The notes under the pieces were generated by a model. That model was not told the origin of the DNA, made no database searches, and saw only the letters and a list, made by a program, of their open reading frames with translations. The position numbers and the translations under genes were made by a program. From contig NZ_LR722657.1 in NCBI RefSeq assembly GCF_902500225.1, positions 1-64,000 on the forward strand: a stretch of 64,000 nucleotides of DNA, written 5' to 3'. The stretch comes from Buttiauxella massiliensis (GTDB lineage Bacteria; Pseudomonadota; Gammaproteobacteria; Enterobacterales; Enterobacteriaceae). Positions 23,824 to 32,927 of the stretch are shown here, piece by piece (the first letter of the stretch is position 1; each line of letters begins with the position of its first letter).

Positions 23824-24555
23824 ATGTCGGTACTCGATCTAAAAGCGTTGAATGAACTGCCGAAAGTCGAGCGCATAATGGCGCTGGGCGAGGTCAACAG
23901 CCAGCTCGAAAAGCTTACGGCGCAGCAGCGCGTAACATGGTCGCTGGAAAACCTGCCGGGTGAGTTTGTGCTCTCCTCAAGCTTTGGTATTCAGGCGGCG
24001 GTGAGCCTGCATCTGGTCACTCAACAGTTTCCAGATATCCCGGTTATCCTGACCGACACCGGTTATCTGTTCCCGGAAACCTACCAGTTTATTGATGAGC
24101 TGACCGAGAAGCTGAAACTGAACCTGCAGGTGTTTAGTGCGAAGGAAAGTGCGGCCTGGCAGGAAGCGCGTTACGGCAAGCTGTGGGAGCAGGGCGTTGA
24201 AGGCATTGAGAAATACAATGACATCAACAAAGTCGAGCCGATGAACCGTGCGCTGCGTGAACTGAACGGGCAAACCTGGTTTGCTGGCCTGCGCCGTGAG
24301 CAATCTGGCAGCCGTGCGAATTTACCGGTGCTGGCGATTCAGCGCGAAGTCTTTAAAATCCTGCCAATCATCGATTGGGACAACCGCCAGGTTTACCAAT
24401 ACCTCACCGCCAACGGCTTGAAATACCATCCGCTGTGGGATCAGGGCTACCTTTCTGTCGGCGACACTCACACCACGCGTAAGTGGGAAGAGGGTATGGC
24501 AGAAGAAGAGACTCGTTTCTTTGGTCTGAAGCGTGAGTGCGGTTTGCACGAGTAA
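23824..24555 (+). CDS. cysH: Phosphoadenosine phosphosulfate reductase
   Basis: Reduces PAPS to sulfite and PAP with thioredoxin. This is the step between CysC and CysIJ in sulfate assimilation. The 243-residue protein has the PP-loop-like [26 protein letters not shown], the [10 protein letters not shown] arginine loop and the C-terminal catalytic cysteine in KRECGLHE. It lacks the second cysteine pair of APS reductases, as expected for the PAPS-specific enterobacterial type. It is third in the cysJIH operon and followed by a terminator. Confidence 0.98.
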
Positions 24556-24579
24556 TACACCTAAAGCACAATAATCCCG

Positions 24580-24612
24580 AAGCCTGTCGCGCAATACCGA
24601 CGGGCTTTTTTA
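24580..24612 (+). terminator. Intrinsic terminator after cysH
   Basis: Stem AAGCCTGTCG / CGACGGGCTT (one G-U pair) with loop CGCAATAC and a T6 run. It ends the cysJIH transcript and insulates the accessory cluster downstream. Confidence 0.88.
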
Positions 24613-24924
24613 TGATTAGAACCCGTCTTTATTTTTATTAGTCATACTAATAGATTCGTAATATTTCACAATCCCCGTCGCAACTGTAAATTCATCATTG
24701 TTATTAGTTTTAACATTACTCAACAAAATCAATGTATTATAAATGTTTATTTCAGGGATTTTCATAAATACCGCTAATATTTACTATCTGGCAACAAATA
24801 ACCCCTCATCTGATAACTTAAAAATTACGACATTGTTCACACAACAGTCAGTTTATAAATACTATAGTACGACAAATAGAACAATTTACTCCCCCTGTCT
24901 TTTCTCAACCCTACGAGAGTTGCT
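24613..24924 (+). promoter_or_regulatory. AT-rich leader and promoter region of the mannonate dehydratase operon
   Basis: 312 bp with no gene and much lower GC than the flanks. It carries one clear operator-like palindrome near its left end (listed separately) and a short palindrome tactatagta about 60 bp before the start codon. Several AT-rich hexamers could serve as -10 boxes, so the promoter cannot be fixed by eye. Confidence 0.5.
24637..24651. promoter_or_regulatory. Operator O1: ATTAGT-CAT-ACTAAT
   Basis: Perfect inverted repeat with a 3-bp spacer (17 bp if the outer T and A are counted). It fits the FadR-type GntR operator pattern (…GT-N3-AC…). Near-identical sites occur before the SDR gene and twice before the lyase gene, and a variant lies before the GntR gene. 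It is probably the binding site of the GntR protein encoded in the cluster. Confidence 0.65.
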
Positions 24925-26142
24925 ATGAAGATCGAACGTATAAAAGTGCTGGTGAGCCGGCCTGGACGAAATTTTGTTACGGTAAAAATTGAAACGGACG
25001 AAGGGATTTATGGTGTGGGTGACGCCACACTGAATGGTAGGGAAATGGCCGTTGCAGCGTATCTGGAAGAGCACATTGCTCCGTGTCTTATTGGTAAAGA
25101 TCCGCGCAATATCGAAGATATCTGGCAGTACCTTTATCGCGGTGCGTACTGGCGTAAAGGTCCGGTGACGATGACGGCGATCGGCGCAATCGACATGGCG
25201 TTGTGGGACATTCTGGGCAAACACGCGGGGCTGCCGGTCTGGCAACTGCTGGGTGGAAAAAGCCGTCAGGGCGTGACGGTGTATGTTCATGCCAACGGCG
25301 AAAGTATCGATGAAGTGCTGGATAACACGGCGAATTTTATTGAACAAGGCTACAAAGCCATTCGTCTGCAATGTGCGATTCCATCCACCAAAGGCACTTA
25401 TGGCACGCTGGAAGGGAAGAAAAATTACTATGAGTTGCAGGGCAATCGCCCGTTGCCGCCGGAACAAGCGTGGTCTACGCGCAAATACATGAATTTCATA
25501 CCTGAGTTGTTCAAAGCGGCTCGCGAACGTTTCGGTTACGGCATTGATTTATTGCATGATGTTCATAGTCGTCTGACACCAATAGAAGCGGCACGGCTAG
25601 GGAAAATGCTGGAGCCGTATGATTTGCTGTTTTTAGAAGACACCGTCACGGCAGAAAACCCGGCTGGTTATCAAATTATTCGCCAGCACACCACGACGCC
25701 GCTGGCCGTGGGTGAAATATTTAATACCATCTGGGATGCAAAAGAGTTAATCGAAACGCAATCGATAGATTATATCCGCACCGCAGTTTCACATGGCGGG
25801 GGAATAACACCGATGCGTAAGCTCAGTGCATTTGCCGACCTTTATCATGTGCGTATGGCACCGCATGGTGCACCGGATTTATCACCCATATCCACAATGG
25901 CCCATTTGCATCTTAATAGTTGGGCACCTAATTTTGGTATCCAGGAATTTGTTGGTTTTGGCACCCCTGAATTAAACAGCATCTTTAAATACGAACTGCC
26001 CCTCAAGGATGGAATGCTATTGGTTTCTGATAAACCAGGTTTGGGAATAGATATAGATGAAGCCGCCATGGGGAATTACCCCTATGTCAGATCTTATCTT
26101 CCTGTTAGCCGCCTCGAAGACGGAACGCTCTGGAACTGGTAA
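24925..26142 (+). CDS. D-mannonate dehydratase of the ManD/RspA family (enolase superfamily)
   Basis: Predicted to dehydrate D-mannonate to 2-keto-3-deoxy-D-gluconate (KDG). The 405-residue protein keeps what I recall of the ManD active site: Arg147 and Tyr159, Asp212 with His214 (HDVHSRLTP), Glu238 (FLEDTV), Glu264 (VGEIFNT), His314 ([10 protein letters not shown]) and Glu341 (GIQEF). Ala at 316 corresponds to the residue described as Ala in high-activity and Pro in low-activity ManDs (from memory). It is unlike the iron-dependent UxuA. Followed 23 bp later by a symporter gene, it is probably the first gene of an operon. A gluconate or starvation-sensing (RspA-type) role is the alternative. 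Confidence 0.82.
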
Positions 26143-26165
26143 TCCTCTGACCTAAGGGTACGATT

Positions 26166-27941
26166 ATGATCTATGATACCGCTGTAATCTGTGGTTATTT
26201 CATCTTAATGGTGTTGATCAGTTTTATATTTAAAAAAATGGCCAGTAAATCCTCCAGTGATTATTTCCGTGGCGGTGGGCGCATGTTGTGGTGGATGGTG
26301 GGGGCGACGGCGTTTATGACGCAGTTTAGCGCCTGGACATTTACCGGAGCCGCCGGGAAAGCATTTAGCGATGGCTTTATGGTGGCTGCAATATTCCTCG
26401 GAAATACCATCGCATACGGAATTTCGTGGCTATGGTTTGCAAAACGTTTCCGCCAGGTGCGCGTAGACACGGCCACTGAAGTGATTCGTCATCGCTTTGG
26501 TTCGCAGAATGAGCACTTCTTCACATGGGTGATTATCCCACTGAGTATTCTGAGCGGCGCGGTAATGATGAATGCGCTGGCGATATTTGTTAGCACCGTT
26601 TTTGACTGGGATCTTTCGGTCACGATTTGGGTTACCGGTATTGTGGTGTTAATGATCTCGTTATTAAGCGGGGCCTGGGGCGTGGTTGCTTCTGACTTTG
26701 TACAAACCTTAATTGTTGCGGTCATTTCTATTGCCTGCGCCATTGTTGCATTAATCAACGTTGGCGGTCCGGTAAATATGGTCACTCACTTCCCATCCGG
26801 CTTTATTATGGGGCCGAATATGAATTACGGAGTGGTGATATTAGGTTCAGTTATCTTCTTTATTGTAAAACAGCTGCAAAATATAAATAACATGCAGGAT
26901 TCTTACCGTTTCCTGAATGCGAAAGACTCGAAGAATGCCCAAAAGGCCGCTTTCTTTGCCATGATATTAATGGCTGTGGGTACGCTGATTTGGTTTATTC
27001 CACCGTGGGTTTCTGCCAGCCTTTATCCGGATGCCACTGCGCAATATGCCGCTCTCGGAAATAAAGCCTCGGACACTATTTATTTGAGCTTTGTTGAACG
27101 GGCAATGCCTGCGGGAACCGTTGGTTTGCTAGTCGCCGGTTTATTTGCCGCAACTATGTCGACAATGGACCCGGCTTTGAACCGCAACAGCGGCATTTTC
27201 GTGCGCAGTTTCTGGGTGCCGGTGGTTTGCCGTAATAAAAAGATCAGTGACCGTGCGGAGCTGTTTGCCGGGAAAATGTTCTGCATTGTGAACGGCTTGC
27301 TGGTGATTATTGTTTCGCTGTTCTTCAGTCATCTTGAAGGCATGAGTTTGTTTGACCTGATGATGTCGGTTTCAACCCTTGCTCAGGCTCCACTGCTGGT
27401 GCCGCTGTTCTTCGGCATGTTTATCAAGCGCACTCCGCGCTGGGCGGCGTGGGGAACTGTGGTATTCGGCATCTTTGTGTCGTGGATGTGTATGGATGTG
27501 TTGACCTCGAAAGCGCTCGGCCAGTTGCTGGGAATTGAGTTTACCAAACGCGAACTGAGCGAAATCAACGTCATCATTAACATCGTTGCGCATCTGGTTC
27601 TCACGGGTGGTTTCTTTATCTGCACCAAACTGTTCTATCGCGAAACGTCATATTCCGTGAAAGAGCAACAGCAGATTGAAACCTTCTTCAAGAATATTGA
27701 AACCGAAGTGGTGGAAGACGATCAGCAGAGCGTGTTTGACCGTCTGCAACGCGAAAAAATCGGCTTTATTACCATGCTGATGAGCGGCGGAATGGTGCTG
27801 ATGGTGCTGATTCCAAACCCGCTGTGGGGGCGATTATTGTTCCTGGGGTGTGCCGCATCGATATTCCTCGTAGGGTATTTGCTGCGCCTGAGTTGCCGGG
27901 TGGAGCAGAATTCCCCACAGCAAGCGAAACATATGCTTTGA
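26166..27941 (+). CDS. Sodium:solute symporter (SSS family), probable oligo-uronide importer
   Basis: Inner-membrane transporter of 591 residues with about 14 hydrophobic segments. The N-terminus SSDYFRGGGRMLWWMVG followed by ATAFMTQFSAWTFTGAAG is typical of the SSS family sodium-binding core, and a hydrophilic tail at about 490-530 precedes the last membrane segments. SSS proteins of this type (for example the Toa transporters of Vibrio) carry oligoalginate. Here the neighbours (ManD, DEH-reductase-like SDR, PL17-like lyase) suggest import of short uronate oligomers or monomers, but specificity is inferred from context only. It ends at a strong terminator. Confidence 0.78.
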   Translation: MIYDTAVICGYFILMVLISFIFKKMASKSSSDYFRGGGRMLWWMVGATAFMTQFSAWTFTGAAGKAFSDGFMVAAIFLGNTIAYGISWLWFAKRFRQVRVDTATEVIRHRFGSQNEHFFTWVIIPLSILSGAVMMNALAIFVSTVFDWDLSVTIWVTGIVVLMISLLSGAWGVVASDFVQTLIVAVISIACAIVALINVGGPVNMVTHFPSGFIMGPNMNYGVVILGSVIFFIVKQLQNINNMQDSYRFLNAKDSKNAQKAAFFAMILMAVGTLIWFIPPWVSASLYPDATAQYAALGNKASDTIYLSFVERAMPAGTVGLLVAGLFAATMSTMDPALNRNSGIFVRSFWVPVVCRNKKISDRAELFAGKMFCIVNGLLVIIVSLFFSHLEGMSLFDLMMSVSTLAQAPLLVPLFFGMFIKRTPRWAAWGTVVFGIFVSWMCMDVLTSKALGQLLGIEFTKRELSEINVIINIVAHLVLTGGFFICTKLFYRETSYSVKEQQQIETFFKNIETEVVEDDQQSVFDRLQREKIGFITMLMSGGMVLMVLIPNPLWGRLLFLGCAASIFLVGYLLRLSCRVEQNSPQQAKHML

Positions 27942-27946
27942 CTCGC

Positions 27947-27977
27947 AAAAGCGCCTTTTACCGGGCGCTTTTCTTTT
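27947..27977 (+). terminator. Intrinsic terminator after the symporter gene
   Basis: Perfect stem AAAAGCGCC / GGCGCTTTT with a short loop and TTCTTTT tail. It shows that the downstream SDR gene needs its own promoter. Confidence 0.9.
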
Positions 27978-28001
27978 GCATAGCACGGATGGGTTGATAG
28001 T

Positions 28002-28016
28002 ATTTGTAATACTAAA
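28002..28016. promoter_or_regulatory. Operator O2: ATTTGT-AAT-ACTAAA before the SDR gene
   Basis: Same 6-3-6 geometry as O1 with the right half conserved (ACTAA). An overlapping longer palindrome, TAGTATT-TGT-AATACTA, is also visible. It lies 20 bp upstream of the SDR start codon, a position where a bound repressor would block transcription. Confidence 0.5.
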
Positions 28017-28036
28017 TGACAAATAGAGGTGATCCG

Positions 28037-28813
28037 ATGTTTTCTGATTTACGGAATAAACATGTATTAGTGACTGGCGCTTCGGCAGGCGTAGGTTTGG
28101 CAGCAGCAGAGGCATTTTTACGCTGCGGCGCAAAAGTGGGTATTAATGGCCGCCGCTCCGCGCAGGAGATGGAACCGCAGCTTGCCAGACTTCGCAGTTT
28201 AGGTGGCGAAGTTTGCTATTTCCCGGCTGATTTATCCCAGTCAGGTGCCTGTCAGCAATTGGTCAGCGCTTTTGTCGAACAATTTGGTGGCCTTGATGTG
28301 CTTATCAATAACGCCGGAGGTTTAGGTGGGCGTGCAGGTCTTGAGAGCATCGACGATGACTTCTATGACCGCGTCATGGACTTGAACGCACGCTCGGCAT
28401 TAATGATGACCAAATATGCGATTCCTCATCTGCGTGAATCGGCAAAAATCAGCGGTGAAACTGCCTCGGTAATCAGCACCGGTTCGATTGCAGGGCGTGA
28501 AGGCGGCGGCATTGGCGCAGGTATTTACGCGGCGTCAAAAGCCTGGTTGCACGACATTCATCGCAATTGGGTGAAAGAGTTCACCAAAGATCATATTCGC
28601 TTCAACATTGTTTCGCCGGGCACCATTGATACCGCTTTCCACGAAGATAAACCGCAGGAACTGCGTGACAAGATTGCCGGGTCGATTGCGATGGGGCGTT
28701 TTGGGCGCAGTGAAGAGGTGGCTCCAAGCTTCCTGTTCTTTGCATCTCATAAAATGAGCGGCTACATTACCGGCCAGATTTTAGATGTAAATGGCGGCCA
28801 GATGGCCCCTTAA
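28037..28813 (+). CDS. Short-chain dehydrogenase, probable DEH (4-deoxy-L-erythro-5-hexoseulose uronate) reductase
   Basis: The 258-residue SDR strongly resembles the Sphingomonas A1-R alginate-DEH reductase along its whole length: MF-DL start, TGASAGVG cofactor loop (13-20), NNAGG at 91-95, ISTGSIAG with Ser150, Tyr164 and Lys168, then FNIVSPGTIDTAFHEDK. Arg39-Arg40 after the second strand favours NADPH. The expected reaction is DEH to KDG, joining the product of the ManD enzyme. The start has a GAGGTG ribosome site; an upstream in-frame start overlaps the operator and is rejected. A related uronate or 3-oxoacyl-type substrate cannot be excluded. Confidence 0.8.
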   Translation: MFSDLRNKHVLVTGASAGVGLAAAEAFLRCGAKVGINGRRSAQEMEPQLARLRSLGGEVCYFPADLSQSGACQQLVSAFVEQFGGLDVLINNAGGLGGRAGLESIDDDFYDRVMDLNARSALMMTKYAIPHLRESAKISGETASVISTGSIAGREGGGIGAGIYAASKAWLHDIHRNWVKEFTKDHIRFNIVSPGTIDTAFHEDKPQELRDKIAGSIAMGRFGRSEEVAPSFLFFASHKMSGYITGQILDVNGGQMAP

Positions 28814-28814
28814 A

Positions 28815-28872
28815 GGTATCCGTCATACTTCGGGTTGCAGCGGTGCTGACTGCAACTCGAATTATTTTGGCT
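28815..28872 (+). repeat. Internally deleted mini-ERIC (about 58 bp)
   Basis: Both outer arms of the ERIC element are present (ggtatccgtcatacttcgggttgcagc and tgcaactcgaattattttgg), but the central core of about 70 bp is missing. The remaining arms still form a hairpin (gttgcag / ctgcaac). It lies between the SDR and GntR genes. Confidence 0.75.
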
Positions 28873-28879
28873 ACATGGT

Positions 28880-28894
28880 TTAGTGATACACTAA
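28880..28894. promoter_or_regulatory. Operator-like palindrome TTAGTG-ATA-CACTAA before the GntR gene
   Basis: Perfect inverted repeat related to the ATTAGT/ACTAAT sites of the cluster but with the half-sites two bases further apart. It lies about 31 bp before the GntR start, where autoregulation would be expected. The spacing difference makes this the weakest member of the set. Confidence 0.45.
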
Positions 28895-28925
28895 TTTCCT
28901 TCCCTTTTTCAGGTATGACAAAAGC

Positions 28926-29621
28926 ATGCAATTCACAACCATTGCTACTACGCAACGCGGTCTGGATGGACTTATTGCCAGCGACATCGCCCGCAAGATT
29001 CTTTCCGGGCAACTTTTGCCGGGGGATATTTTGCCCAGCGAAGTGGAGCTTTGCGAACAGCTCGGAGTGAGCCGTACGGCATTGCGTGAGGCGCTCAAAC
29101 TTGTGTCATCGAAAGGGATGCTTGAATCTCGCCCGAAAGTGGGAACCCGTGTTCGCCCGCGTAATAACTGGAATATCCTGGATGTTCAGTTGCTCGAGTG
29201 GATGAATGGCATGGAAGGGACGCTGGAAATGTATCACCAGTTTCTCGAGTTCCGCCGCGTTATTGAGCCGCATGCAACACGCCTTGCCGCGTTGAATGCC
29301 ACCAGCGAGCAGCGTATTGAGCTTTCTCGAGTGCATGAAGAAATGTGCGCCGTAGCGAAAGAGTTCGATCCCGATCGTTGGGTCGATGTGGATACGCGCT
29401 TCCACCGTGCGATTTTCCTGGCTTCGGGAAATTGCTTCTATGCCCCGTTTGGCAATGTGCTGACCACCGTGTTTAAGTGGTTTATCAGCCATTCGTCGAA
29501 AGAAGGCGGCATGTGTCTGGAAGACCATCACCGCATTTATCGCGCGATTATGATTGGCGACGGTGAAGCCGCTTATGATGCATCTTTAGCGTTGATGACG
29601 GCAAGCAAACACCGTCTATAA
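28926..29621 (+). CDS. GntR-family (FadR subfamily) transcriptional regulator
   Basis: A 231-residue repressor-type protein. The N-terminal winged helix-turn-helix shows LLPGDILPSEVELCEQLGVSRTALREALKLVSSKGML (about 31-67). The C-terminal FCD ligand domain carries the metal-site pattern FRRVIEPHATRLAA…DTRFHRAIF…EDHHRIYRAI. Such proteins usually sense sugar acids such as uronate or aldonate intermediates. It lies within the ManD/symporter/SDR/lyase cluster, whose promoters share FadR-type palindromes, so it is the likely local regulator. It converges on the lyase gene and the two coding ends overlap by 6 bp. Confidence 0.85.
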   Translation: MQFTTIATTQRGLDGLIASDIARKILSGQLLPGDILPSEVELCEQLGVSRTALREALKLVSSKGMLESRPKVGTRVRPRNNWNILDVQLLEWMNGMEGTLEMYHQFLEFRRVIEPHATRLAALNATSEQRIELSRVHEEMCAVAKEFDPDRWVDVDTRFHRAIFLASGNCFYAPFGNVLTTVFKWFISHSSKEGGMCLEDHHRIYRAIMIGDGEAAYDASLALMTASKHRL

Positions 29622-31724
29622 AGGCTGTATCGAGAACTGCCCAAAACCAGGGCGGTTATCGACGATGATTTCCAACGCTTCATCTTGCACAAAATAGACC
29701 CCGACTTTGGTTTGAGCATTCAGTTCATGCTCGAGCACTTCGACACGTGTTACTTGCCCGCGCGCATTGCGTGAGGATTCGCTGGCTTCATCAAAATAGC
29801 CGTGGCTTTCAATAGTGGTGGCAAATACCACGTTGTCGCCATGAGTACGCCATAACCACGCAGGTTCAACACGTAAATTGAACTGCGGATCGCCAGCACC
29901 TGTCTGAGCAATAATCAGCTCGCCGCCCTGGGGCAACGCGCCCGTTGCGGTGTAAAAAGTATCACCATCAAGCCAGGTCAGTTGCCCATTTTCACCTTCA
30001 GGAACCGGGCTGCGGGCGCAATCCCATAAATGCTGATAGCCGTGCCGATCGCCTAATGGCTGCCATGACATCGAATAATTCAGTGGTAGCGAGGTGTTGA
30101 TCAGTTGTCCACGCCCGTGCAGGCAATAATCATATTGATGTTTATCGCTGCTGCTTAGACTGAAAAGATCGAGCACCAACGGCTTTTCGCACTGCGGCAC
30201 ATTGAGTAATAACACCGTGCGCTGCTGGCTAACGCCGGGCCAGTCATCGTGGCTGCGAGCGCTCATCCCTTGGCCGTGTGGGTTATCGGTGATAAAGAAG
30301 TGCGTTTCACCGTGGTGCAGCGCGGCCTGGTTTTTATCGAAATTATGCTGACAGCCTTCATCTACCACCACCGTGTTGTGGGCGACGGTTTGTTTACAGT
30401 AGCTATTGTTTTCGGGAATGTAGCGCCCGCCAAATTTTGGTTCGATATTAACCCAGCGACCGAAACCGTAATCGCGTAAAAACTCGCGACCACGATTAAA
30501 CAGGCTCAGGTGCAAGCCGTCGAAATGACCGTGGTTTAACGCCGAATGCATTCCGGCAATATTGCCGTGACCGCCCCAGTACAGCAGCGCCATATTGTCA
30601 TCTTGCTGATTATCCCGCACCCGCAACACGCCGATAGCCCCACGCTCACCGTCCTGGCCATCACGAACTAACTGGCTTGGCCAGGGTAAAGATTGAGCTG
30701 GCGAATTTTCCAGATCCTCGCAAAGCGATAAAGCCCCGCGCCCCGGCCAGACGCATGACTGCCAGCGGGCCAACTCAGCCAGACGGGCATCCGCTCCGTA
30801 ATGCTGCCAGCACAGACTGACGGCGATAACGGCACCTTCATCGCGTAAGTCCATCGTTTTTGACGCGTCATTTAAAGCCGGAAGCGTACCGTCGGGGAAG
30901 GCCAGCGCAAACAAGGTGTAACAAGCGCATTGAATAATACGATGGTTATATTCCCAGATATTCAGTTCAGGCTGGCGGCGGGAGATGGCTTCGGCGAGCA
31001 GCAGAAGAGGGCGCAGAGCAAAGCGCTGGTAATAAAGCCCTTCTATATAGTAACCGTCGCGTGAAAAGAGTTGGTTAAGCTGCGCGAAGAAGCCGCCAGT
31101 TTTGCTATCTCGCGCCAGGCCATACAGCGAATCCAGCACCCATTCGTCATCACCTAACACGTACCCGCAAATCGCGACCGCCGCGACCGACCACATCCCA
31201 TGGTTATGCACAATATCGAAGGTTGAAGCGTGAGTATGTGTGGCGTCTTGCGCCATCAAACGCAGCAAATTGCTTTCAATATGTTGGATTTGTTCAGCGG
31301 TCGATTCAGTCTTTACACAGTGCCAGGCTTCAGCGGCATAGAGCAAAAACATATGTTCGTTAAGCGTCTGGTGGAATAAACGCCCTGGCGGATTGGTGTC
31401 GTGGCTGATGGCATCACCCAACTGCGGGTAGCGGTCGGCATAGACGCAGAGAATCTGAATCACCCGTTCTTTGTAACGCGCATCCTGATTAATGAGCCAC
31501 AAACGGCCCGCAAGATTCATCATCTGGTAATTCAGTTTGTGCTGTGTGTGTTCCGGCCCGCCGCCTTCCCCATGCCCGGGAACCCACAGCGGTGCATTTA
31601 GCCATTGTTCAACTTGCTGCTGCTGGAGGCGCAGGGTTTCGCCCAGCAGAGTATTGCGCATCAAATGGATACGTAGCGCTGCGGCATCGTCGTTATCAAT
31701 AAATAGCGGGGACCAGGTGGACAT
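29616..31724 (-). CDS. Cytoplasmic heparinase II/III-family lyase, probable exo-acting oligoalginate lyase (PL17-like)
   Basis: The 702-residue protein has an N-terminal alpha-toroid (about 40-340) and a C-terminal beta-sandwich (heparinase II/III domain, about 370-700). Motifs match PL17 oligoalginate lyases: HNHGMW (173-178, Asn/His pair), DGYYIEGLYYQRF (223-235, candidate catalytic Tyr), NHGHFDGLHLSL (398-409), RYIPEN (434-439) and AHNTVVVDEG (448-457). Expected action is beta-elimination that releases unsaturated uronate, which becomes DEH. No signal peptide is visible, so it should act inside the cell on imported oligomers. Related PL15, PL12 or PL21 specificities are possible. Two operator-like palindromes lie upstream of its AGAGAAGG ribosome site. 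Confidence 0.8.
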   Translation of the reverse strand: MSTWSPLFIDNDDAAALRIHLMRNTLLGETLRLQQQQVEQWLNAPLWVPGHGEGGGPEHTQHKLNYQMMNLAGRLWLINQDARYKERVIQILCVYADRYPQLGDAISHDTNPPGRLFHQTLNEHMFLLYAAEAWHCVKTESTAEQIQHIESNLLRLMAQDATHTHASTFDIVHNHGMWSVAAVAICGYVLGDDEWVLDSLYGLARDSKTGGFFAQLNQLFSRDGYYIEGLYYQRFALRPLLLLAEAISRRQPELNIWEYNHRIIQCACYTLFALAFPDGTLPALNDASKTMDLRDEGAVIAVSLCWQHYGADARLAELARWQSCVWPGRGALSLCEDLENSPAQSLPWPSQLVRDGQDGERGAIGVLRVRDNQQDDNMALLYWGGHGNIAGMHSALNHGHFDGLHLSLFNRGREFLRDYGFGRWVNIEPKFGGRYIPENNSYCKQTVAHNTVVVDEGCQHNFDKNQAALHHGETHFFITDNPHGQGMSARSHDDWPGVSQQRTVLLLNVPQCEKPLVLDLFSLSSSDKHQYDYCLHGRGQLINTSLPLNYSMSWQPLGDRHGYQHLWDCARSPVPEGENGQLTWLDGDTFYTATGALPQGGELIIAQTGAGDPQFNLRVEPAWLWRTHGDNVVFATTIESHGYFDEASESSRNARGQVTRVEVLEHELNAQTKVGVYFVQDEALEIIVDNRPGFGQFSIQPL

Positions 31725-31743
31725 AGCCTTCTCTCTGACACTT

Positions 31744-31758
31744 ATTAGTATGACTATT
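31744..31758. promoter_or_regulatory. Operator O4: ATTAGT-ATG-ACTATT, proximal to the lyase gene
   Basis: One mismatch from the perfect ATTAGT-N3-ACTAAT palindrome; read on the lyase coding strand it contains AGTCATACTAAT as in O1. It lies 20 bp upstream of the lyase start codon on the minus strand. Confidence 0.6.
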
Positions 31759-31831
31759 TAAGTTTCGGATACCGGGTTTTGTCCAGAATGAAAGGCGAAA
31801 TGAGTCGGGCAGGTCACAAAACTGTGTTTTT

Positions 31832-31846
31832 ATTAGTCATACTAAA
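31832..31846. promoter_or_regulatory. Operator O5: ATTAGT-CAT-ACTAAA, distal to the lyase gene
   Basis: Identical to O1 except for the last base. It lies 74 bp (between palindrome starts 88 bp) upstream of O4, so two sites flank the presumed lyase promoter. The arrangement would allow a dimer at each site and possibly a short DNA loop. Confidence 0.6.
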
Positions 31847-31886
31847 TGGCCGATTTTGTCGCTCCGGCCAGTTTAGATTTGCAGGG

Positions 31887-32927
31887 TTATTGCTTCGCTT
31901 TTGCCAGCTCTTTCACCAGTGGCAGCATCACTCGCACCGCATCATGGCTGCGTTTCTCGATGCGCGTTGGTAGCCATTTATCCAGATACTGTTGGTTATC
32001 GATTAAGCCATTATGCCAACTGGTCCCATCCGGGAAGGCTTTGCTTTTCGCTCGTTGCTGATAACCATCTTTCTTGCCCAATGACCAGTTAGTTGCTTCA
32101 ACAGAAAGCACGGGAATGCCGGCTTCATCAAACACATCGGCATCGTTACAACAACCGGTTCCTTTCGGATATTTGGCATTTAGGCCTGGATTAGTCGCGG
32201 CTTTAACATTTAACTGGCGCGCCAGTTTTAATGCACGATCGCGCGTCAGCTTACTGACCGCTGTTGGTGTTGATTTACCGCTATTGAAATAGAGTTTGTC
32301 GCCGACAATCAGGTTATCGAGATTAATCACCAGCAATGTATTTTTCTTCTCGCGGCCCGACATGCGCTTAAGAACATCTTCCGCACCTTGTTTGCCAATT
32401 TCTTCACCACTGGTGGCGATAAAACGGATGCCATAGCGAGTTGGAATATCTTTCAGGCGCGTTGCAAGCTCAAGCATAACGCCCAGCCCTGAAGCATTGT
32501 CATCAACACCTTGCAGCGTTAAACCACCAAGATTGTTATTTACATCGTTATCACTGAGCGGTGAATAGGTATCGAGGTGCGCCATGATAATGATTTGCTG
32601 CGGCTCAATTCCTTCACGTGCGGCAATGACAGAGCTTGCACTGACGTTATGCCAGCTCTGATGGCCATCTTTGGTGGTGTACAAATAACGAGTGTTAAAG
32701 CGGCGAATATCGCTTTGGTAACCAAGCTGGCTAAATTGCTGCTTGATGTAGTCTGCGGCCAGCATTTCCGAGGGGCTACCGGTCATGCGTCCTGGGAATA
32801 CCGTGGCAATGTGGCGTGTTTGTTGACTGGCAATTTTGCCTATTGGCGTTGTGTTGGCAACAGCGGGCAAGGTACAGCAAATGCTTAACGCCAGGCTGGT
32901 TAGCGAGTGGCGCATTGCGGAAAACAT
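31887..32927 (-). CDS. iap: Alkaline phosphatase isozyme conversion aminopeptidase
   Basis: Exported zinc aminopeptidase of the M28 family that trims the N-terminal Arg of alkaline phosphatase in E. coli. The 346-residue protein starts with a Sec signal peptide (hydrophobic LTSLALSICCTLPAVA, cleaved about residue 24). It then carries MAHLDTYSPLSD, GVDDNASGLGVMLELA, SGEEIGKQGAE and CCNDADVFDEAG, which hold the two-metal site and the general-base Glu. It matches E. coli Iap (345) throughout. In E. coli K-12 the CRISPR locus sits next to iap; here the lyase gene does. Confidence 0.95.
   Translation of the reverse strand: MFSAMRHSLTSLALSICCTLPAVANTTPIGKIASQQTRHIATVFPGRMTGSPSEMLAADYIKQQFSQLGYQSDIRRFNTRYLYTTKDGHQSWHNVSASSVIAAREGIEPQQIIIMAHLDTYSPLSDNDVNNNLGGLTLQGVDDNASGLGVMLELATRLKDIPTRYGIRFIATSGEEIGKQGAEDVLKRMSGREKKNTLLVINLDNLIVGDKLYFNSGKSTPTAVSKLTRDRALKLARQLNVKAATNPGLNAKYPKGTGCCNDADVFDEAGIPVLSVEATNWSLGKKDGYQQRAKSKAFPDGTSWHNGLIDNQQYLDKWLPTRIEKRSHDAVRVMLPLVKELAKAKQ

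Follow-up and report, generated by a model that had tools for sequence, protein, structure and literature searches.

What is encoded between cysH and iap in Buttiauxella massiliensis? The stretch analysed here, positions 1 to 64,000 of contig NZ_LR722657.1 (the window, 64,000 nt of a 4.88 Mb genome in 46 contigs), carries five intact open reading frames between cysH (23824-24555, matching E. coli cysH at 77-79% in the rows listed, which excludes E. coli as the host) and iap (31887-32927; NF007568, 626.6 bits, cut-off 298): manD and the genes of an SSS-family symporter, an SDR and a GntR-type regulator (gntR) on the plus strand and, convergent with them, that of a PL17-like lyase on the minus strand. 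An earlier note, made from the letters alone, had named these five gene families and seen in them a regulon for scavenging oligouronides, probably oligoalginate, that is absent from the E. coli core. All five are where it had put them, and none of 5,426 E. coli genomes has a place covering 80% of our query, the E. coli matches (20 rows listed) being confined to its cysH part. Judged from sequence, a GntR-controlled regulon for the scavenging of oligoalginate is the probable overall explanation, and its core, the route from alginate oligomers via 4-deoxy-L-erythro-5-hexoseulose uronate (DEH) to 2-keto-3-deoxy-D-gluconate (KDG), appears very likely. The same gene order is kept in all four named Buttiauxella loci, so the arrangement is not due to chance; among the eight loci scanned, Buttiauxella gaviniae is the nearest named relative, with 96% identity for the lyase and 99% for the other cluster genes, and the lyase occurs in three of the six Buttiauxella genomes listed. 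Base composition (0.48-0.53 in the cluster genes, 0.50 in the window) was dropped as evidence.

The lyase (29616..31724, minus strand, 702 aa) carries the domains Alginate_lyase (PF05426, 38.6 bits, cut-off 22.2) and Hepar_II_III_C (PF07940, 58.8 bits, cut-off 24). Its seven best PDB matches, at 424-377 bits, are all PL17 alginate lyases, a label taken from the entry titles and from PMC12336832, and a Foldseek search with a model of the lyase returns PL17 enzymes at ranks 1-10 (E 5e-43 to 1e-40), followed by a match at 4e-15. The model itself is mediocre, with a mean pLDDT (predicted local distance difference test) of 65 and an active site largely below 50; values below 50 at residues 385-402 and 419-474 make the loop structure uninformative. 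N174, H175, Y232 and Y435 correspond to N201, H202, Y258 and Y450 of Alg17C, and these four catalytic residues are invariant across all 58 rows of our PL17 alignment; matches with stops or below the score and coverage limits were excluded from alignments and trees. Domains, PDB matches and fold matches thus bear out the PL17-like lyase of the earlier note, and its cytoplasmic placement fits the lack of a visible signal peptide, which by eye and in the alignment holds for the starts of the enterobacterial PL17 proteins in general.

The SDR gene is annotated at 28016..28813 (plus strand), with a likelier start at 28037 (codon 8), which aligns with residue 1 of A1-R' and is preceded by AGAGGTGA, in our own reading a putative ribosome site. 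Its four best PDB matches (393, 387, 360 and 353 bits) stand well apart from the next SDR at 131 bits; the top two, 4w7i and 4tkl, are labelled DEH reductase, 4w7i naming A1-R', and the other two 'carbonyl reductase'. One of the latter, 3afm, is A1-R. With 173 of 258 residues identical to A1-R' (4tkl, 67%), and with Ser150, Tyr164, Lys168 and Arg39-Arg40 in place, the protein has the A1-R signature that had been claimed for it, provided that residues are counted from codon 8. It is thus by sequence an A1-R-type DEH reductase, with a predicted activity from DEH to KDG; in place of Arg39-Arg40, A1-R' carries Ser-His or His-Val, a difference that suggests the use of NADPH.

The first two genes of the cluster are of a different kind. 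ManD (24925..26142, plus strand, 405 aa) is assigned to the D-mannonate dehydratases of the enolase superfamily (NF043051, 677.7 bits, cut-off 550; best PDB match E 1.4e-163), and R147, Y159, D212, H214, E238 and E264 were located by motif; the catalytic Arg147/Tyr159 and the metal-binding Asp, Glu and Glu we presume from NaManD, with a two-residue shift that is likewise assumed rather than aligned. The tree unites it with a Vibrio-like ManD (83% identity, support 99/99) and keeps RspA apart, which excludes it as a copy of RspA: the RspA-like gene of this genome is a separate, 56% identical paralogue, one of two further genes of the wider ManD family (56% and 41%). Some members of the ManD family dehydrate D-gluconate. 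The SSS-family sodium:solute symporter (26166..27941, plus strand, 591 aa) matches PF00474 at 122.3 bits (cut-off 22.8) and stays below the superfamily cut-off of TIGR00813 (139.8 of 184). In its tree, which has a midpoint root and one long branch flagged, the Buttiauxella rows join the ManD-linked symporter of a locus from another family, L092 (support 99/94; L and G numbers are our handles for loci and genomes), as sister to the symporters linked to PL5 and PL17 in enterobacteria. The family of L092 (f184) is taken to be Vibrio-like. Between the symporter and SDR genes lies a terminator-like hairpin (27947..27972, plus strand; 10-pair stem and T-rich tail, a pattern only), visible to our own reading in five of five Buttiauxella; such patterns number 16 in the region against 9.2 in shuffles.

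What speaks for alginate beyond the similarity of the lyase? A family-level search for PL17 (E<=1e-30) in 392 genomes from 154 genera gave a match in 18 genomes of 7 genera, 17 of which were fetched besides the window's own; with related lyases in 7 of 154 sampled genera, the cluster is not unique to Buttiauxella. In 11 of the 17 fetched genomes (L037-L047), a PL5-like lyase occurs together with the same PL17, SDR, GntR and SSS families, the symporter gene being divergent from that of the PL5-like lyase; PL17 comes after the latter, and SDR and GntR adjoin these genes (on the opposite strand in L037); in L049, a PL5-like gene (45%) lies at a greater distance. Against Alginate_lyase, the PL5-like protein scores 311 bits in Ewingella and 304 in Hafnia psychrotolerans, and in the remaining loci the gene was identified by similarity to the Ewingella protein. 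Six of seven PL5-like N-termini are in frame, each with a hydrophobic stretch ending in ALAAEP, VRAAEP or VAAEP, which, read by eye, suggests a signal peptide. As the PL5-like proteins have such signal-like N-termini and the PL17 proteins none that is visible, an exported PL5-like and a cytoplasmic PL17 enzyme seem to share importer, reductase and regulator in these relatives. These neighbours in 11 of 17 genomes and an SDR nearest to a DEH reductase support the oligoalginate substrate that the earlier note had proposed, and we regard this gene context as a stronger argument for alginate than the PDB and fold matches. The open-licence literature yielded no text joining 'alginate lyase', Enterobacterales and PL5, and for Buttiauxella and alginate no title on this trait among the matches listed; for Ewingella, PL17 and PL7 are listed from automatic annotation in the excerpt consulted (PMC7281767).

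The genes are further tied together by a palindrome. The regulator (28926..29621, plus strand, 231 aa) is an FCD/GntR protein of FadR type (PF00392, 66.4 bits; PF07729, 83.7 bits), and the palindrome TTAGTnnnACTAA occurs before manD, in degenerate form before the SDR gene and twice before the lyase gene. TnGTnnnACnA is the form of FadR-family operators. The first copy, TTAGTCATACTAA (24638..24650, plus strand), is exact, and its core stands before manD in three of the four named Buttiauxella loci, L004 being without the strict form. The second, TTTGTAATACTAA (28003..28015, plus strand), directly precedes the SDR gene with two mismatches, a level not significant by itself; its letters are identical in five of five Buttiauxella, and L035 and L036, two loci of another genus, have the full core in this position. 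Before the lyase gene lie ATAGTCATACTAA (31745..31757, minus strand, one mismatch) and a further exact TTAGTCATACTAA (31833..31845, plus strand), both with the core in all four named loci; the two exact copies coincide with the ends of the interval delimited by the earlier note, 24637 and 31846. At up to three mismatches, the 17-mer TATTAGTCATACTAATA finds three places in the window (four matches, one place on both strands) against 0.01 expected, TAGTnnnACTA occurs four times in the window, three of them in the cluster, against 0.28 expected, and three of the five places of the 13-mer at up to one mismatch in the whole genome fall in the cluster. A wider regulon drawn from sites with up to two mismatches was rejected, with 70 genome matches against 177 for the reversed control pattern.

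The palindrome recurs in relatives. Over 20 cluster loci, TAGTnnnACTA, a pattern derived from the window, has 34 sites in 7,661 bp of promoter intervals, which were set after the matches in relatives were known, against none in 360,092 bp elsewhere. The count leaves out L007, L008, L009 and the window, and L002/L034 and L003/L033 stem from the same genomes, leaving 18 distinct ones; 14 of 20 loci are positive, or 12 of 18 genomes, with 28 distinct sites. In L037 and L043-L047, the six loci that lack a strict site, the spacer between the SSS and PL5 genes holds a variant differing by one letter. A relaxed pattern covers 20 of 20 loci, a figure that is descriptive, the pattern having been chosen after the relatives' sites were inspected; six of its seven matches outside the promoter intervals are the site before the SDR gene. 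The regulators share the region GVSRTALREALK, which is nearly unchanged in the palindrome-bearing relatives, with single changes in a few. The predicted shared operator, common to the promoters of manD, SDR and lyase, thus supports a joint GntR regulon, as had been surmised, and may serve as a mark of the enterobacterial alginate regulon across genera.

The size of the substrate can be approached through the lyase. An insertion of eight residues (about residues 388-395 of the window lyase) before H398 and the HGHFD motif splits the 58 PL17 rows into 28 long and 30 short, as counted from the alignment printout. Where two full PL17 genes stand in tandem, one is long and one short in eight of eight loci, and the long form is found in all 20 single-copy enterobacterial rows (19 distinct genomes), including the window lyase. 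According to the excerpt consulted of PMC12336832, VaAly17A, with a short Loop1, cleaves chains longer than two, while VaAly17B, with a long Loop1, cleaves disaccharides into unsaturated and equimolar saturated monomer. We infer that the insertion is this Loop1, and that the window lyase would be of the VaAly17B/OalC disaccharide type. The spacing of the catalytic tyrosines, in the paper's numbering 204 in VaAly17B and 199 in VaAly17A (PMC12336832), is 203 in the window lyase, 203-207 in long and 189-203 in short pair members; as the two ranges touch, spacing alone is no proof of a match with VaAly17B. A genome search found no second PL17 gene and no other intact PF05426 gene; PL7 was not found either, in a search whose control gave no match, and no search was aimed at PL6 or further families. 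Import of short oligomers and their cleavage inside the cell, as the earlier note had it, fit the long loop, the lack of a visible signal peptide and the single PL17 found.

How, then, might the parts work together? Without alginate fragments, the FCD/GntR protein would sit on the TTAGTnnnACTAA sites and presumably repress manD-SSS, SDR-gntR and the lyase gene. The symporter would import short oligomers, mainly disaccharides, set free by other microbes; the cytoplasmic PL17 enzyme would, by the chemistry of its family, split them into DEH and, from saturated ends, free mannuronate or guluronate. The SDR would convert DEH directly to KDG, for which the genome holds a kdgK (84% identity). Since the SDR would reach KDG without ManD, and since ManD is not in the stretch examined in 15 of 17 fetched PL17 relatives, ManD, for which the earlier note had offered no explanation, should serve something other than the DEH route. 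In the excerpt of PMC6011931 that we consulted, D-gluconate and D-mannonate are oxidised at C6 to uronates by A1-R', with efficiencies of 79% and 37%, respectively, relative to KDG, and L-guluronate is mentioned for the glucose route; by our own stereochemical reasoning the products would be L-guluronate and D-mannuronate, both monomers of alginate. Taken in reverse, these interconversions would carry saturated monomers to KDG through SDR and ManD: the SDR would probably also be the enzyme that reduces mannuronate to D-mannonate, ManD would then dehydrate the latter, and if ManD also takes D-gluconate, L-guluronate could follow via D-gluconate. That ManD serves saturated mannuronate is conceivable, though the odds seem to lie somewhat against it; the full two-branch scheme, with a single SDR acting on DEH as well as on saturated monomers and ManD completing the second branch, is put forward more tentatively still. 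If true, it would allow the complete use of saturated disaccharides by an organism without an endolyase; the cluster offers a concrete, testable route for saturated alginate monomers in a culturable bacterium. Open-licence literature on enzymes for saturated alginate monomers gave matches on 'saturated mannuronate' only, and in the excerpts found with 'mannonate dehydratase', 'alginate' and 'mannuronate' the dehydratase is not tied to alginate ends.

The distribution of ManD has a bearing on these proposals. A survey of 394 genomes from the order gave 15 places where ManD is at least 64% identical to that of the window, the others listed being at most 59%; all 15 neighbourhoods were examined, two of them cut by contig ends. 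A symporter of the same clade is present in ten, and PL17 lies within the stretch in four (the window, L034, L074 and L092). PL17 searches were positive for six of the 15 genomes (G000, G165, G962, G1018, G1078, G1094), and G1253 has PL17 in L092. L092 has kdgK, eda, two PL17 genes (one cut) and an SSS gene, then LacI, ManD (83%) and a second SSS (68.5%). In L065, from another family of the class, GntR, SSS, aldehyde dehydrogenase, ManD (54%), PL17, a TonB receptor, PL6-like and PL7 stand in a row. In other lineages, too, ManD is thus found inside a PL17 locus or next to one (L065, L074 and L092); elsewhere it stands with LacI, a Gfo/Idh/MocA oxidoreductase and SSS, as tested for Gfo/Idh in L074, L095, L096 and L101 and for LacI in L074, L092 and L101. 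From these sequences, manD-SSS would be a separate module common to the window and the Vibrio-like L092. As the stretch examined in L035 and L036 shows SDR-GntR-PL17 at cysH-iap but neither ManD nor SSS, the Buttiauxella cluster looks like SDR-gntR-PL17 and manD-SSS joined under one operator.

Several observations weigh against our reading. PL17 is not in the stretch examined in 11 of the 15 neighbourhoods of close ManD relatives, outside the family only 2 of the 27 PL17 loci examined have ManD nearby (L065 and L074; some stretches are cut by contig ends), and none was seen in the stretch examined around the 11 PL5-type clusters, so ManD is not needed for the core pathway. The reported data on A1-R' cover the oxidation direction and not the reduction of mannuronate, and two other DEH reductases were inactive on other substrates at 1 mM (both in the excerpt of PMC6011931). 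The Buttiauxella symporter clade stands apart from the symporters beside PL17 in Vibrio-like loci; judging by the loci compared, the Vibrio symporter with growth evidence, whose gene deletion severely impairs growth on alginate in Vibrio sp. C42 (PMC13390454, in excerpt), would belong to that different clade. Lastly, with 420.6 bits the lyase falls short of the cut-off of 1400 for NF042990, an NCBIfam equivalog for oligoalginate lyases that is narrower in scope than PL17, and is therefore not filed there.

Could one regulator govern two functions, with PL17 and SDR acting on oligoalginate that enters otherwise, and manD-SSS being a captured module for free hexuronate or aldonate? The main support comes from the marine relatives, where ManD and SSS accompany LacI and Gfo/Idh/MocA and no PL17 is in the stretch. 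The Buttiauxella symporter is closest (68.5%) to the ManD-linked one of L092, where the PL17 genes have a second SSS, SDR-GntR-PL17 occurs without ManD or SSS in the stretch examined of L035 and L036, and the hairpin and an operator site of its own part SDR from SSS. Yet the symporters from each of the 11 genomes with PL5 and PL17 (L007 and L008 representing two of them) fall in the clade of the Buttiauxella symporter; no ManD was seen near those clusters, and a PL17 enzyme in the cytoplasm depends on the import of oligomers. In addition, manD-SSS and the lyase carry the same operator; we consider this division of functions unlikely.

Slightly less probable is a reading of ManD as a surplus mannonate dehydratase for ordinary glucuronate breakdown, unrelated to alginate ends. 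D-mannonate is a normal intermediate of glucuronate breakdown, as the excerpt consulted of PMC6353982 has it, and the lack of PL17 around 11 of 15 close ManD relatives agrees with such a role. However, ManD and the lyase share a regulator site in Buttiauxella, ManD is found within or beside PL17 in L065, L074 and L092, and the wider ManD family is represented in the genome by two more genes. That the substrate is another uronide altogether, for instance a different uronan or an exopolysaccharide that contains mannuronate or guluronate, would agree with the 28-33% identity of the lyase to solved PL17 enzymes (fold alignment) and its low equivalog score, but is very improbable given the PL5-like neighbours, the DEH-type SDR, the conserved PL17 catalytic residues and, in L065, the presence of PL7 and PL6-like genes next to ManD-PL17.

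The oligoalginate regulon that we favour is otherwise a variant of known alginate utilization loci; its new elements are the predicted operator, a lyase of putative disaccharide type and the proposed branch through ManD. In the excerpts consulted, the alginate loci of Vibrio (Vibrio sp. C42, PMC13390454; the V. alginolyticus PL17 pair, PMC12336832) likewise have cytoplasmic PL17, an SSS importer, a DEH reductase, a GntR-family regulator and KDG as end point. Buttiauxella differs in its single long-loop PL17, the added ManD and an SSS of another clade; neither PL7, with the limit on its control given above, nor another intact PF05426 gene was found in its genome, and its cluster is without porin, KdgF, KdgK and Eda, one KdgM-type porin and kdgK lying elsewhere in the genome. 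The enterobacterial clusters of Ewingella, Hafnia psychrotolerans and others (L037-L047) share the PL17, SDR, GntR and SSS families and, in 11 of 11, the operator between SSS and PL5, either strict or with one letter changed, but have a PL5-like lyase, no ManD in the stretch and another gene order. With A1-R/A1-R' of Sphingomonas sp. A1 (PDB 3AFM, 4TKL), the SDR has its catalytic residues in common; while uptake of alginate in Sphingomonas is by an ABC system (PMC13390454, in excerpt), the Buttiauxella reductase is accompanied by SSS and ManD. The marine gammaproteobacterial LacI-ManD-Gfo/Idh/MocA-SSS modules (e.g. L096, L101) resemble manD-SSS in having ManD (64-69%) and SSS (55-61%) close together, with LacI and the oxidoreductase in place of GntR and SDR and no PL17 in the stretch. 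The Buttiauxella cluster points to the scavenging of alginate fragments, perhaps of Pseudomonas-type slime as much as of seaweed.

Some further observations concern the cluster genes and their relatives. The 3' ends of gntR and the lyase gene overlap by six bases (29616-29621). Elsewhere in the genome (G000, contig C27, about 210,000-211,900; L030, L070) lies a decayed-looking second lyase gene with a partial Alginate_lyase and a weak Hepar_II_III_C match, between a ferritin-like gene (own reading) and that of a DcuA/DcuB-type transporter; an AraC regulator is also close by. In Kluyvera cryocrescens (L006, 6968-9829), TRAP genes (DctP, DctM) adjoin PL17, with an SSS in addition, and in Kluyvera YDC799 (L009, 10001-14834) PL17 and SSS match in several pieces, by sequencing error or decay. 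In L093, L096, L097 and L103, the four tested, a protein of 284-292 aa without a Pfam match follows ManD-Gfo/Idh-SSS.

The interval between cysH and iap, here 24556-31886, is a cargo site, holding the alginate cluster in the Buttiauxella massiliensis window and CRISPR-Cas I-E in E. coli K-12. Buttiauxella G374 has Cas-like genes and CRISPR-like repeats there, as read from translations, G019 has one small open reading frame, and in G250 cysH and iap are nearly touching, with next to nothing between them.

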